Source: Deltaproteobacteria bacterium (GTDB taxonomy: Bacteria; Bdellovibrionota; Bacteriovoracia; Bacteriovoracales; Bacteriovoracaceae). Taken from it: a DNA stretch of 32,609 nt. Shown one piece after another: positions 20,397-26,226 of this stretch. The notes under the pieces are model-generated. The model was not told where the DNA came from. It was given only the letters and a program-made list of their open reading frames with translations, and ran no database searches. The stretch is taken from positions 1 to 32,609 of the forward strand of contig SBGE01000080.1 of NCBI GenBank assembly GCA_006226755.1, given 5' to 3'. Both the position numbers and the translations under genes were made by a program. How positions within the stretch are numbered: position 1 is the first letter of the stretch; every line of letters starts with the position of its first letter.

Positions 20397-21194
20397 TTGA
20401 ACGTAGCCAACCTTGGAAGGAGATACACTGAGAAACTCGGTGCAGTCATCATCAATGCAATTGATGGACTGGGCTCGGTTTCCTATTTTGGTTCCAAGTT
20501 CTTCTATTGGTTCATGAAACCTCCGTTCAGGCTCAAGCTCTTCATGGAACAGATGTATTTCATTGGGAACAAAAGTCTCTTCATCATTTGTCTTTCTGGG
20601 GCCTTTACCGGAATGGTTATGGCCTATCAGGTTTATTTTGGTTTCAAACTTATTTCAGTTGATTCACTGGTTGGTCCTGTCGTCTCCATTACATTGGCCA
20701 GAGAACTCGGTCCGGTTTTAACGGGATTGATTGTTGCTGGTCGAGCTGGTGCAGCCATGGCGGCCCAAATTGGAACCATGAAAGTAACAGAGCAAGTTGA
20801 TGCTCTAGAAGTGATGGGCATCGACTCATTCCAATATTTGGCGGTACCCCGAATCATTGCTGGAACACTTTCTTTGCCAATGCTCTCCTCACTTTTTTGT
20901 TTGGTTGGTAACGTTGGATCTTTCATTGTTGGAACCAGAGCACTTATGATTGATGAAGCGGTTTATCTCAGCAAGCTTGGAGAGTTCATGTTTATGGAAG
21001 ACATGACTCAAGGGGTGATCAAAGCTTTTGTTTTTGGTTTTGTGGTGGCTGTCATCGGAACATATTTTGGTTTTTCGGTATCTAAAGGTGCAGAAGGTGT
21101 AGGACGTGGGACCAATCTAGCGGTCGTTTGGGGAATGATCTCAGTATTAATTCTGGATTATTTCCTCACAAGCTTTTTGGTGCACATTCTATGA
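20397..21194 (+). CDS. mlaE: MlaE-family ABC transporter permease (lipid transport)
   Basis: A 265-aa inner-membrane permease of the MlaE/YrbE family, which with MlaF, MlaB and MlaD moves phospholipids between inner and outer membrane. Conserved parts are GAFTGMVMAYQ, TLARELGPVLTGLIVAGRAGAAMAAQIGTM split by short gaps, VTEQVDALEVMGID and the PRIIAGTLSLPML segment. Five or so membrane spans follow a N-terminal interfacial helix. The start is TTG at 20397 with AAGGAGAT (20384-20391) well placed. Its stop overlaps the ATG of mlaF. No MlaB (STAS) gene is seen in the window. Confidence 0.94.
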   Translation: MNVANLGRRYTEKLGAVIINAIDGLGSVSYFGSKFFYWFMKPPFRLKLFMEQMYFIGNKSLFIICLSGAFTGMVMAYQVYFGFKLISVDSLVGPVVSITLARELGPVLTGLIVAGRAGAAMAAQIGTMKVTEQVDALEVMGIDSFQYLAVPRIIAGTLSLPMLSSLFCLVGNVGSFIVGTRALMIDEAVYLSKLGEFMFMEDMTQGVIKAFVFGFVVAVIGTYFGFSVSKGAEGVGRGTNLAVVWGMISVLILDYFLTSFLVHIL

Positions 21195-21937
21195 TGGAAA
21201 ATATGGATGATGCTATTCAGATCAATGACCTGACCAAAACCTTTGGAACAGCAACTATTTTGAATGGGCTGGATTTTAATATTCCAAAAGGGAAAATCAC
21301 TTCGATTCTTGGTTTTTCTGGAGCCGGAAAATCTACTCTTCTTAAACATATTCTTGGTTTGCTCCAGCCAACCAGTGGTCAGATTGTTGTTCTTGGTAAA
21401 GATCTAGCAACCCTTTCACCTGTTCAGCTTAGAGAATTTAGAAGAAGTTTTGGGATGTTGTTTCAGTATGCGGCCTTATTTGATTCAAAGACCGCATTTG
21501 GAAATGTGGCCTTCCCTCTTCGCGAATTTACCAATTTGGATGAAACTCAGATTGAGAAAAGAGTCAGCGATCTATTGTTGAGTGTTGGTATCAAGGAAGA
21601 AGCTTTTCATCGTTTGCCATCAGAGCTTTCTGGGGGGATGCGTAAAAGAGTTGGTCTTGCAAGAGCACTGGCCCTCTCTCCTCAGATCATGCTTTATGAT
21701 GAGCCCACTACTGGTCTCGATCCCATTACGACCAAGATGGTGAACGATCTTATTGTTGAAACTCACAATAAAAACCGAGGAATGACCTCGATTATTATTT
21801 CTCACGATATTAAAGCTACATTGGAGATTTCCGACTTTATAGCTTTTTTGGATCGTGGTAGCATTGTTGAATACTTACCAGTATCAGAATTTAAAAAATC
21901 CACCAATCCGATTGTGCAGGAATTTTTGAATCTGTGA
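21191..21937 (+). CDS. mlaF: MlaF-family ABC transporter ATPase
   Basis: A 248-aa ATPase subunit. Walker A GFSGAGKST (41-49), Q-loop Gln92, signature LSGGM (146-150) followed by RKRVGLARAL, Walker B IMLYDEPTTGLDP (166-178) and switch His205 in ISHD are all intact. LSGGMRKRVGLARA is typical of the Mla/TGD ATPases. The start at 21191 (ATGATGG) overlaps the mlaE stop as ATGA; a longer reading frame from 21128 lies inside mlaE and is rejected. Confidence 0.94.
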   Translation: MMENMDDAIQINDLTKTFGTATILNGLDFNIPKGKITSILGFSGAGKSTLLKHILGLLQPTSGQIVVLGKDLATLSPVQLREFRRSFGMLFQYAALFDSKTAFGNVAFPLREFTNLDETQIEKRVSDLLLSVGIKEEAFHRLPSELSGGMRKRVGLARALALSPQIMLYDEPTTGLDPITTKMVNDLIVETHNKNRGMTSIIISHDIKATLEISDFIAFLDRGSIVEYLPVSEFKKSTNPIVQEFLNL

Positions 21938-21979
21938 TTTATGGAAGATAGCTAGAGAAGACAAGGAAGTCCTTACTAG

Positions 21980-23359
21980 ATGACAGAGTTTAAAGTCGGC
22001 CTCATGGCATTGGCCACCATGGCTGCAATTGTATTTATGTCTTTTAAAATCACCTCCAATCAATCTGGATTTGGTGATTATGTCGAATATAAAACGATTG
22101 TTCGCGATGCTTCTGGAATTTTCCCAAAAACACCAATCAAAGTTGCAGGGATCAATGCTGGTCGAATTAAAAAGATCGAGCTGATTGGAAACAATGCTTT
22201 GATTGCCTTTGAAGTACTTGAAAAAGTAAAGATTACAACAGATTCGAAACTTAGAATTAAAACAGTGGGATTTCTTGGCGACAAGTTCTTGGAAATTCAA
22301 ATTGGCAAAAGTGACAAGAGGCTGGAGTCAGGCGGAAGTATTGTTGCTGTTGAAGGTGCTGGTCTCGAAACTATTATGAAGGATGCTTCTGAAGTCGTGA
22401 AAGACGTCAAAGAAATGGTAGCTTCATTGAAGAACACTCTTGCTCCTGTTGATCAAACACCTCCAATCAAGAAAATTCTAGATAACGTTGAGCAACTTTC
22501 TAAGGATGCCAAAGAATTCATGGGCAAAATGAAAACGGCCATGGGTGATGGTGAAAATCGTCTCGATACTATGATGAAGAATTTCGAGAAAGTCTCTGCC
22601 AATCTAGCAAAACATACAGATGAGAAAAATAAAGAGTCAGCGATGGCCGATCTTAAGGTGATCCTTGAAAATGCAAAGAAAGCAACAGATGATCTAAAGC
22701 AAATAATTGCTGATATCAAGGCCGGAAAAGGTACTGTTGGTCAATTCTTAGCTGACGACGGTATTGCTGATGAAGTGAAAGAGACTCTTTCAGGGGTACA
22801 AAAACTTGTTAATAAAGTTGATTCCATCAGAACAGAGTTGGCAGTCTTTACAGGAGCTAACACTGATTACGGAGCAGAATCCTCTGCTCATTTAAAAATC
22901 TTTCCTTCTCCAGAAAGGTTTTACTTACTTGGTTTAACAACCAGTGAATTTGGACCAGAGTCAGAAACCATTACAAGAACTTCGACAAATGGTGGAGCTG
23001 AGACAGTTGTAATAAATAAAGAGCAGAAAAAAGATCAATGGCGATTTGATGTTCAGTTAGGAAGAAAAATTCATAACTGGTCTTTCAGAGGTGGTTTAAT
23101 TGAATCATCAGGAGGGCTAGGACTTGATTACGATCTTTCTTCCTGGGAACAAAGATTCAGTTTTGAAGTTTTTGATTATACCGACGCTCGTGAATTTGGA
23201 GTCAACTTTAGAATTAGCACACATATCCAATTGTGGAATGTTCTCTACGGAAAATTGGCACTGGAAGACTTGCTTGAGGATAATCGAAGTGCGACTATTA
23301 GCGCCGGCTTGAGATTTAATGATGAAGACCTGAAGGGCTTGATTGGCTTCTTCTTTTAA
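21980..23359 (+). CDS. Long MCE-domain (MlaD-type) protein with a C-terminal beta-barrel-like region
   Basis: A 459-aa protein, more than twice the length of E. coli MlaD (about 180 aa). One membrane anchor lies at about 5-24, and the MCE domain at about 33-125 (KVAGINAGRIKKIEL, LRIKTVGFLGDKFLEI). Then come about 160 residues of helix (130-290), and finally about 170 residues of alternating polar/aromatic strands from 285 (TELAVFTG, AHLKIFPSPERFYLLGL, WRFDVQLG, FSFEVFDY, FGVNFRIS, YGKLALED, ATISAGLRF) ending in GLIGFFF. The final aromatic residue is like the C-terminal signal of BAM-inserted outer-membrane barrels. So the protein may run from the inner membrane to the outer membrane. Long MlaD proteins with such barrels are known in diderm Firmicutes; I infer the same type here. 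An AAGGAAG site precedes the ATG. Confidence 0.85.
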   Translation: MTEFKVGLMALATMAAIVFMSFKITSNQSGFGDYVEYKTIVRDASGIFPKTPIKVAGINAGRIKKIELIGNNALIAFEVLEKVKITTDSKLRIKTVGFLGDKFLEIQIGKSDKRLESGGSIVAVEGAGLETIMKDASEVVKDVKEMVASLKNTLAPVDQTPPIKKILDNVEQLSKDAKEFMGKMKTAMGDGENRLDTMMKNFEKVSANLAKHTDEKNKESAMADLKVILENAKKATDDLKQIIADIKAGKGTVGQFLADDGIADEVKETLSGVQKLVNKVDSIRTELAVFTGANTDYGAESSAHLKIFPSPERFYLLGLTTSEFGPESETITRTSTNGGAETVVINKEQKKDQWRFDVQLGRKIHNWSFRGGLIESSGGLGLDYDLSSWEQRFSFEVFDYTDAREFGVNFRISTHIQLWNVLYGKLALEDLLEDNRSATISAGLRFNDEDLKGLIGFFF

Positions 23360-23364
23360 ATGAT

Positions 23365-23949
23365 ATGACAGACGATAACGAAAAAATTTGGCTGATCAGA
23401 ACCAAGAATAAACAAATTCTAGGCCCTGTCTCCAAGAAAAAAATTATAGAGTTCGTAGAGAGAAAATCTCTACAGCCGGATGATGAAATCAGCCGAGGCA
23501 ATGGCTATTGGTTTCATATCAAAGAAGAAGACCTGCTGGAAAAATATGTTTTTGGAGATGTTCCTCAGGAATTCAATCCGATTACAGAAGCTCCAAGTGT
23601 CGTTGTCAAACAAGACAAGCCGGAGAATACATCTTCTTTCAATCCTTCCAAGCCAAACATGGGGAGAAGGAAAGAAGACCCTAATGAAAAAGTACCTGAA
23701 GCTGATGATTTGGCCTATCCTGACATCGGAGACGATTCAACACAGCTGCCACCTGCAGAGCCAGAAGACAGTACTCAGATGATCACTCTTCCGGTCAAAG
23801 AGAAGAAACCTAAAATGCAAGCAGTTGTCTTCGACAATTCTCCGTCGAATGACTCTGATGGAAAAGTTCCTGATCCTGATGATCTTGCTTATCCAGATAT
23901 TGGGGAACCAGAAATGGCTCAATCTGCTGAGCCCCAAAAAAAAAACTGA
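23365..23949 (+). CDS. GYF_2-like domain protein, N-terminal part of a frame-switched gene
   Basis: This 194-codon frame starts 5 bases after the MCE gene with no clear ribosome site. Residues about 5-60 resemble a GYF_2 (DUF4339-like) domain: IWLIRTKNKQILGPVS, a helix with IIEFVERKSL, then DDEISRGNGYWFHI. A disordered acidic linker follows with a near-exact repeat, KVPEADDLAYPDIGDD and KVPDPDDLAYPDIGEP (about 110-185). The frame ends just after a run of ten A (23936-23945) with PQKKN and TGA. The -1 frame continues without a stop into the next 3' part, so I take this as the first part of one protein of about 755 aa, or as a short alternative product. Confidence 0.75.
   Translation: MTDDNEKIWLIRTKNKQILGPVSKKKIIEFVERKSLQPDDEISRGNGYWFHIKEEDLLEKYVFGDVPQEFNPITEAPSVVVKQDKPENTSSFNPSKPNMGRRKEDPNEKVPEADDLAYPDIGDDSTQLPPAEPEDSTQMITLPVKEKKPKMQAVVFDNSPSNDSDGKVPDPDDLAYPDIGEPEMAQSAEPQKKN
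23936..23945 (+). other. A10 run at the frame switch (slippage site or sequencing indel)
   Basis: Ten consecutive A lie at the exact point where the N-terminal frame must move back by one base to join the downstream frame. The frame-0 reading is open from this run through to 25631. Such runs support ribosomal -1 frameshifting and polymerase slippage, and are also where sequencing drops bases; an eleventh A would restore one frame. Confidence 0.8.
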
Positions 23950-24053
23950 AGTCTGAAACAGTTCCTATAGAAAAAATTCAAACTGAATCCATAGAAGAAA
24001 ATGACCCGTTCGCAGGACTTGAAGAGGTCTCTCTCGAAGAAGTTAAGGGCTCT

Positions 24054-25631
24054 GTGGATCATGTTAAAAAAGAAGAAGTTTCAATTTCTCCCGCAACAAA
24101 AGCTACCAATGCTGTTAAGGCCGAAAAAGTAGAGCCGGTCAAAAACGTAAGAGAAGCGGCCCCAAAAGTTACAAAAACTAAAAATATTGAAGACTCGGAT
24201 ATTCATCCTGATCATCGCAAAAGAAGTGATAGATATCTTTATTTACTTTTGTTCGTCATTGTCGGTCTTCTGGTAGCTGTCGTTTATTATTACAAGATGA
24301 TCTTGCATAAGCCTCTACCGTTGATTGGTTTAGTGATTTCTTCGGCAAATGCACAGAGCGTTGCCACTGTTGAAAAAAAATCTTCAGGGGTTTATGAAAA
24401 TTTGACGGTGGATGGAATTGATTTCCATCCTTATGTCGACTTTAGAGGGTTTCGTTTGAAGTCCAATTCGGCTACACCTCCTGAGGAATGTAGTGGCCTG
24501 GATTTGTTTGGCGTTAAGATGTTTCTTGTTATCGAGGGAAGAAATCTTAATGAAGAGTGGAAAAAGTTCAAAGATAAATGCTCATTCAAAATCACTGGAG
24601 AAGTTGGAGCTCTGATAGAGTATGGAAACAATGAAGAGAAAAACTTCTTGGAATTCATCAATCCTTATAAATTGACCAAGAAAAGAAAAAATAGAATTCT
24701 TGAAATTCACCAGTTAGTCCAGAAGAACTCAGGGGTAGTGAGTTATCCAGAAACTTTTTTAAGTTTGGTTGAAGAGAAATTTGAGGGTAAAAAAAGTCAA
24801 AAACTCGACAAACTCAAAAGCTACTCTGATAAAGTTAAAGATTCTGAAAATGTTTTTGCAGTTCTCTCAAGACTCTACATTTCGCTGTCATGGGGGAATC
24901 ACTCTTGGGCCAAAAGAGAGATCAAGAATCTCATTCATCTCACACCTATTCGTTATATCTACTCCATTCAACTTAAAGGTGACGAAAAGAAAATTAATCA
25001 GCTGAAAATAGCATTGAATACTGTCATCAAAAAGGCTTATGAAGTTGAAGAGATCAAGCAGGAAGTAAGACTTCTCGTTTCAAATTTTTCACTATTTATG
25101 GAAGGCGATGATGTCAAACAACTGGTCAGTGATCTTGAGGCGAATTGGTCTTTGGCAGATTTGAGACGCCTGTCACGGGGAGGAAGAAGAGGTCGAGAAT
25201 ATTTTGATTTCTGGTACTCAAGTTTGAAGGGGAGAACCACAAAAAATGAGATTTTGAGCTACTTTCAAAGAAGTCTTAATCCGGACATCATTAAAGAAAT
25301 GTCTCCCCATGCTCTTTGGGTATTTTCTGAATATTTGCCCAATGACAAAGATGAACGAAGTGAAATCATCAATAGAGGTATCAAACTAGGAAAAAGTACA
25401 GATCCCTATACAAGATTCATCGTTTTTAATCTTTCGTCTCAAGAGCCTCTGAAAATGGCATTAGCACCTGAAATTTCGTGGATGAAAGGAGCAACTTTCA
25501 ATGTCAAAAGGATGTTGCACTCGGACTCCTTGGACAGAGGTCAGGCGATCAATTACAGTATTTACAATCTGCTTAAGATGGGCGACAAAAACGAAGAATT
25601 TCTTTGGTGGTTGGCCCTACAAAATGAGTGA
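24054..25631 (+). CDS. Transmembrane protein, C-terminal part of the frame-switched gene
   Basis: The coordinates give the first start codon (GTG at 24054) in this frame, but the frame is open back to the A10 run and the extra codons encode the same kind of Lys/Glu linker. From the GTG it is 525 aa. About 60 charged linker residues end in HRKRSDR, followed by one membrane span (about 61-80, YLYLLLFVIVGLLVAVVYYY). After that come about 440 residues, presumably periplasmic, largely helical and rich in Lys/Leu, without a motif I recognise. With the GYF-like N-terminal half this gives a cytoplasmic sensor, linker, anchor and periplasmic domain. It overlaps tsaC by 8 bases. Position behind mlaEF and the MCE gene suggests an envelope role; that is inference. 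Confidence 0.7.
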   Translation: MDHVKKEEVSISPATKATNAVKAEKVEPVKNVREAAPKVTKTKNIEDSDIHPDHRKRSDRYLYLLLFVIVGLLVAVVYYYKMILHKPLPLIGLVISSANAQSVATVEKKSSGVYENLTVDGIDFHPYVDFRGFRLKSNSATPPEECSGLDLFGVKMFLVIEGRNLNEEWKKFKDKCSFKITGEVGALIEYGNNEEKNFLEFINPYKLTKKRKNRILEIHQLVQKNSGVVSYPETFLSLVEEKFEGKKSQKLDKLKSYSDKVKDSENVFAVLSRLYISLSWGNHSWAKREIKNLIHLTPIRYIYSIQLKGDEKKINQLKIALNTVIKKAYEVEEIKQEVRLLVSNFSLFMEGDDVKQLVSDLEANWSLADLRRLSRGGRRGREYFDFWYSSLKGRTTKNEILSYFQRSLNPDIIKEMSPHALWVFSEYLPNDKDERSEIINRGIKLGKSTDPYTRFIVFNLSSQEPLKMALAPEISWMKGATFNVKRMLHSDSLDRGQAINYSIYNLLKMGDKNEEFLWWLALQNE

Positions 25632-26226
25632 TCAAAATAACATAAAAATTTTCATTTATCCCACTGACACCGTTTGGGGGATCGGAACAAATGCCACCTT
25701 GGAAGGTGGTTCAGACGCTATTGCCGGAATCAAAAAAACTGGAAAAGGAAAACCTCTCTCAGTTCTTTTTCCAAATCTTTCTCTACTCAATGAATATTTT
25801 GATTTTCCAGGCAATCTTGATCAGAGATGGTTAGCTGATTTTTTCAATGCAGAATCGACACTTGGTTTACCTGTGTCTTGGTCCAAGGGAAAAATAGCTC
25901 CTAGTGTGTATGCAGGAATGCCTCATATATGTGTTCGTTGTATTGAATCCCCTGAGGTTAGCAAGCTGGTTGAAGTCGCTGGAGGCCCTGTACTGACAAC
26001 TAGTGTGAACGTTACTGGAAATCCTCCTGCATCCAATAGAGATGAGGCCTGGTCTTTTTTTAAAGAACATGTGAGCGATGGACAATTTATTGAACTCGAG
26101 AAGCTAAGACCATCAGGGCATTCTTCTACGATGGTCCTTCTCAATGAAGATCTTACTTGGACCATGATTAGAGAGGGAGAAAAAGTCGATGACGTCCGAC
26201 AAAAGCTTGAATTACTCCCAGCCTGA
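25624..26226 (+). CDS. tsaC: Threonylcarbamoyl-AMP synthase family protein (TsaC/Sua5/YrdC)
   Basis: A 200-aa protein of the YrdC fold, which makes threonylcarbamoyl-adenylate for the t6A37 tRNA modification. Recognisable parts are YPTDTVWGIG near the N-terminus, the KKTGKGKPLSVLFPN segment (the basic KxR/K-x-P motif), VYAGMPHICVRC, and the C-terminal GGPVLTTSVNVTGNPPA stretch. The start at 25624 overlaps the previous stop by 8 bases. The upstream extension of 41 codons is in another gene's coding region and is rejected. Its product pathway feeds the TrmO methylation encoded near 6 kb. Confidence 0.9.
   Translation: MSDQNNIKIFIYPTDTVWGIGTNATLEGGSDAIAGIKKTGKGKPLSVLFPNLSLLNEYFDFPGNLDQRWLADFFNAESTLGLPVSWSKGKIAPSVYAGMPHICVRCIESPEVSKLVEVAGGPVLTTSVNVTGNPPASNRDEAWSFFKEHVSDGQFIELEKLRPSGHSSTMVLLNEDLTWTMIREGEKVDDVRQKLELLPA

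Follow-up and report, generated by a model that had tools for sequence, protein, structure and literature searches.

The closest described systems are tssM1 of Citrobacter rodentium and tssM3 of Yersinia pseudotuberculosis, which, like the gene reported here, carry a long A run (A11) shortly before a premature stop; they give two length variants, as is proposed for our gene (PMC4256274). As may happen in our gene, slippage there joins an inner-membrane protein to its own periplasmic C-terminal part (PMC4256274). The slippage efficiency at the tssM1 A11 is about 20%, and transcripts with 10-15 A have been observed; the short TssM form is more abundant in C. rodentium and the long form is favoured in Y. 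pseudotuberculosis (PMC4256274). RNA polymerase of Thermus thermophilus slips at an A9 run in dnaX to give tau and gamma (PMC1088944), and insertion-sequence transposases with poly-A/T slippage likewise use a homopolymer to join two frames, in both directions (PMC1088944, PMC3711429). E. coli ribosomes slide robustly at A11 and little at A9-A10 (PMC4363877), and the presence of both shift directions among orthologues has been taken as a mark of transcriptional realignment (PMC3711429).

A comparable arrangement is found in the window (the whole stretch of DNA that was analysed, 32,609 nucleotides). In the window sequence an A10 run at 23936-23945, in the context gagccccAAAAAAAAAActgaag, lies at the end of a frame-0 ORF (23365-23949, 194 aa), which reads ...GAG CCC CAA AAA AAA AAC TGA and gives the C-terminal end ...AEPQKKN*. 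The -1 frame has no stop from 23931 until the stop codon at 25629-25631, and contains a Lys/Glu-rich linker, a TM segment, the motif SANAQ and a long domain. An earlier note on this DNA had described a frame ending just past A10, a -1 frame open to 25631 with a Lys/Glu-rich linker, and an extra A that restores a single ORF of 755 aa; the window bears this out, the linker being seen in the -1 translation and one added A in the RNA giving a 755-aa reading. The features of the locus are listed below.

20397-23359, plus strand: lipid ABC transporter genes upstream (MlaE-like, MlaF-like and MlaD/MCE-like)
23365-23949, plus strand: frame-0 ORF of the short product, 194 aa, with a GYF-like domain at about aa 9-83 and then an acidic linker
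23931-25631, plus strand: -1 frame with linker, TM segment and periplasmic domain, reached when the transcript gains one A or loses two, for a full product of 755 aa
23936-23945, plus strand: A10, candidate site of transcriptional slippage (site 1), ahead of the TM segment; A11 at the equivalent site in both congeners
23947-23949, plus strand: TGA stop of the short product, read from the sequence
24237-24296, plus strand: predicted transmembrane segment YLYLLLFVIVGLLVAVVYYY in the -1 frame, from translation and hydropathy
24342-24356, plus strand: SANAQ, a signal-peptidase-I-like AxA/Q motif kept in relatives
24360-25628, plus strand: periplasmic domain, a small beta sheet and then an all-helical solenoid with two invariant Cys (predicted model, pLDDT 90.7)
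24372-24379, plus strand: A8 at the usual family slip-site position (site 2), in frame and too short for a slip site here
25624-26226, plus strand: downstream neighbour, L-threonylcarbamoyladenylate synthase-like (YrdC/Sua5) gene, its ATG overlapping the end of the long ORF by 8 bases

The name GYF-like, also taken from the earlier note, is supported by the predicted fold and not by the Pfam profile. The AF2 model of the N-domain has a pLDDT of 86 and the first ten PDB matches in a fold search were all GYF (probability 0.54-0.94, E 0.2-1), while the Pfam GYF_2 score of 14.4 bits lies under the curated cut-off of 25.8. The second of these matches was GltJ of Myxococcus xanthus (structure 7z3c), a protein for which we know of no slippage. 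The C-domain is modelled with confidence as all-helical apart from a small sheet at its N-terminal end. Against the PDB it gave no match at E<=0.001, and no Pfam or NCBIfam family was found for the domain; the fold matches were to generic helical repeats only, and a specific function from fold was therefore dropped. The mla-like genes upstream, together with the threonylcarbamoyladenylate synthase downstream, make a role in envelope lipid transport possible. The synthase-like ATG and the stop of the long ORF overlap at 25624-25631, which may tie translation of the synthase to the slipped transcript. Copies of a DDLAYPDIG motif recur in the acidic linker (window 23689-23730 and 23863-23910), and most homologues have DDLEYPD-like linker repeats, a possible binding motif.

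The gene is widespread in the Bacteriovoracaceae. With the -1 frame product as query, 39 of 97 relatives gave homologues, none of them outside the family. Among named genomes of close relatives the C-part alone gave no match, but the N-terminal domain alignment did, in records of Bacteriovoracaceae, Halobacteriovorax and Bacteriovorax. By the same alignment, 121 of the 129 genomes of the family have the gene. Its architecture is a GYF-like domain, an acidic linker, a TM segment and a periplasmic all-helical domain. For the census, to which ninety further stretches of DNA contributed, 118 loci from 46 genera (by the genus codes of the collection) were oriented and read in three frames. The C-part lies in the -1 frame of the N-part in 69 of the 118 loci, and 68 of these have an uninterrupted run of at least nine A in the overlap, just 5' of the N-frame stop (A9, 11 loci; A10, 48; A11, 5; A12, 3; A14, 1). 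None of the 68 uses A7 or A8 as the junction run. In the 69th locus (G047) the C-part forms a gene by itself, which has a signal peptide and starts at an ATGA overlap. Two loci in draft assemblies, G165 and G143, show a +1 shift at A10/A11, and four (G145, G149, G037, G052) require two shifts, each having two A9-A12 runs; in G052 the shift is +1 and then -1. The frame is continuous in 15 loci, 13 of which carry A10-A12 runs; the other two belong to genus g18 and have only an A8 near the linker. The two parts are separate genes in G013, G029, G043 and G047; no run lies at the junction, and the second gene has a signal peptide in the cases in which its start was read. About twenty loci have no C-domain, mostly ending directly after the TM segment.

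The run depends on the periplasmic domain: at least nine consecutive A are found in 90 of the 92 genes with a contiguous periplasmic domain, versus 3 of the 23 in which it is missing or separate (Fisher p=3e-17). Counted by genus, the numbers are 33 of 34 versus 1 of 12 (p=1e-8). Relatives in which the second domain is lost or has become its own gene have also lost the run, and thus serve as natural controls. Genus g15 (L194, L177, L169 and others) is such a natural loss control: its GYF-linker-TM gene is not followed by a periplasmic domain, and long A runs are mostly absent. The shift site of genus g33 (L200, L203, L204, L206), at A9-A10, appears to lie within the C-domain itself; the linker of congener G002 (L011, reverse strand) contains a (QSD)n tandem repeat; and in G022 (L012) the TM segment is preceded by about 35 Glu codons in a row, which read as poly-Lys in another frame.

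Long A runs are otherwise rare in these genomes, as judged from pattern searches. The flanking DNA of 80 homologous loci (397 kb, both strands) contains 285 A7, 75 A8, 11 A9 and no run of ten or more, and at this rate a run of at least nine A is expected in 0.81 of 92 linker regions; it was observed in 90. G159, a single contig of 4.15 Mb, has five runs of at least ten A, two of them within the gene (chance 2e-6), and G004, in two contigs, has ten, again with two within the gene (chance 2e-5). Moreover, 35% of Lys codons outside the runs are AAG, yet the runs at the junctions are never interrupted. The A run at the frame junction is not due to chance. The window genome (G000), a 3.85 Mb draft in 309 contigs, also has few runs of at least ten A; the remaining ones are intergenic or outside clear sense-strand genes, bar two A17 runs. 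One of these is suspiciously placed at the very start of contig C157 (G000:C157:11-27). The other, on C239 (G000:C239:3238-3254), is antisense to a response-regulator gene whose receiver motif there reads FFFFF. Both are possibly assembly artefacts.

Such odd A17 runs elsewhere in the draft could suggest that the break in the window is itself a sequencing or assembly error and that the true run is A11, as in congener G001, where the frame is continuous. However, in the three genomes of the window's genus, G000 has A10 with the -1 break, G002 has the same break at A11, and only G001, with a second in-frame A10 after the TM segment, reads through its A11. The break also recurs in most genera, including G004 and the five-contig assembly G050, and even a true A11 would stay a slip site with the ratio reversed. 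Comparing run length and frame in relatives had been proposed in the earlier note, which took a continuous frame with no A run as the sign of a spurious break; instead, the run and the -1 break recur. Error as the whole explanation was rejected on this recurrence across the family, and we regard an error in the window genome as very improbable. A -1 break with an A9-A14 run that recurs across most genera most likely reflects a selected copying stutter.

Both frames are conserved as protein across species and are under purifying selection. Between G000 and its congener, the differences in the -1 frame are mostly at third positions, and the dN/dS of the downstream frame (the C-part) is 0.05-0.12 in pairs with computable dS, which speaks against a decaying pseudogene. 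Nor does the second part look like an ordinary gene that is translated by reinitiation: 60 of the 70 shifted loci have no ATG, and 41 of the 70 no ATG, GTG or TTG, between the opening of the second frame and the first Cys. Truly separate genes do exist in the four genomes named above, but these are without the run. With no usable start in most loci, reinitiation and separate genes were rejected, and we give two ordinary genes or a pseudogene almost no credence.

On a tree of 93 C-domains the frame state changes at least 19 times, 10 of which are between in-frame and shifted. Since long A runs are hypermutable, these changes could point to phase variation, in which replication slippage in the DNA toggles the long product within a population. 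However, in 26 of 32 genera the -1 state is commoner than any other (P=3.5e-8 for equal states); a phase-variable gene should be found switched on in many more genomes. The low dN/dS would also be unexpected for a long frame that is off. Phase variation is thus very improbable.

Ribosomal -1 frameshifting requires only seven bases and usually has a stimulator. As the earlier note had pointed out, A10 contains the A AAA AAA heptamer, which is trivially so for any run of at least nine A; each such run holds A_AAA_AAA in the right phase. Programmed -1 frameshifting, or ribosome sliding, on this heptamer would account for the -1 direction in almost all loci as well as slippage does, and sliding has been seen in E. 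coli on long A runs (PMC4363877). By the strict rule of PMC3711429 such a uniform direction points to the ribosome, the +1 cases being few and in draft assemblies, and this strong -1 dominance leaves the ribosome some probability. On the other hand, +1 breaks do occur, and no A7/A8 or A_AAA_AAG site is used at any of the 68 junctions. No stimulator was found either: there was no stimulatory RNA structure near the run (mean z of -0.06 upstream and -0.15 downstream), and an SD-like motif was present in only 18 of 70 shifted loci, without enrichment, so that neither was retained as a cause. In addition, little sliding has been reported at A9/A10 (PMC4363877), whereas A10 is the commonest length in the family. 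We therefore consider a ribosomal mechanism unlikely.

Taken together, the A10 run is probably a site of programmed transcriptional slippage, by which the proportion of short GYF product to full-length protein would be set. Slippage is favoured by the modal run length of A9-A10, at which E. coli ribosomes slide little and bacterial RNA polymerase is known to slip. The frame directions among orthologues, which are mostly -1, with two single +1 and several double or in-frame states, may also point to transcriptional realignment by the criterion of PMC3711429. The A10 runs use all three codon phases (22, 8 and 19). Against slippage, the 15 continuous loci need none for the long product, g18 has just an A8 near its linker, site 2 in the window is only A8, and the predominant -1 direction is also predicted by ribosomal frameshifting.

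We then propose a model for the expression of the gene, drawn from sequence comparison and the described slippage systems. RNA polymerase would copy most transcripts with ten A, giving the short GYF-domain protein of 194 aa, and a fraction of transcripts would gain one A, or lose two, so that the GYF part is joined to the -1 frame. By analogy with tssM1, one extra A, the usual slippage product on A runs, would restore the default -1 frame. The slipped transcripts would encode the 755-aa protein with its TM segment and periplasmic helical domain. The gene family would retain the run, usually just past the TM segment and AxAQ, to fix the ratio between the GYF part and the periplasmic domain.

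What slippage would control would depend on where the run lies. In most relatives the shift site follows the TM segment and adjoins a signal-peptidase-like AxAQ motif: of the 70 shifted loci, 64 encode a short product that contains a strongly hydrophobic segment, and 58 have [AVSLIT]xAQ within the last 70 aa of the short product. A run after AxAQ would set the amount of periplasmic domain per GYF anchor. The AxAQ before the usual slip site and the signal peptides on the separate-gene versions suggest that the C-domain may be set free in the periplasm by signal peptidase I, with cleavage at AxAQ. The short products of G000, G002, G011, G165, G152 and, marginally, G053 are without the hydrophobic segment, which indicates that the site moved ahead of the TM segment in a few lineages, including that of the window. 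There, any anchoring of the GYF part would also depend on slippage and, with the site before the TM segment, the short form would be soluble, as the earlier note had predicted; among relatives this arrangement is the less usual one. More tentatively, slippage may operate family-wide for as long as the periplasmic domain stays fused, setting the ratio between the cytoplasmic or membrane GYF part and the domain released by signal peptidase, with species resetting this ratio by a one-A change, by moving the run or by splitting the gene.

A literature search for Bacteriovorax and slippage found no paper, the only match for Bdellovibrio and transcriptional slippage concerns soil viruses, and a large frameshift survey has no mention of the Bacteriovoracaceae group or of GYF. 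The slippage mechanism is already known, while the gene family and its family-wide retention of the run were not found in the literature searched. Almost all genomes of this predatory family carry the gene, and automatic annotation of these genomes will call it broken or two genes; a homopolymer break in a draft genome should not be repaired as a matter of course.

To our knowledge, few cellular non-mobile genes have deeply conserved transcriptional slippage, dnaX being the main case. In 23 of 30 genomes the Bacteriovoracaceae dnaX gene (loci L241-L270) has a run of A9-A12 at codon 357-424 (for example L217:1501-1510), in frame with the long product, the same arrangement as in T. thermophilus. 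It is probably a second slippage gene in the family, and its run suggests, without proving, that the family polymerase slips at such sites. T. thermophilus dnaX yields a short and a long product from its A9 run (PMC1088944), as the GYF gene would from a run of comparable length (A9-A12). Its default frame gives the long product, whereas the default of the GYF gene is usually the short one. Unlike the insertion-sequence transposases, the GYF gene is a chromosomal envelope gene beside mla genes and is not mobile. The TssM proteins are unrelated to it, and their slippage has been reported in only two T6SS clusters (PMC4256274), whereas the run of the GYF gene is kept across 33 genera of one family, with its position and default frame varying by lineage.
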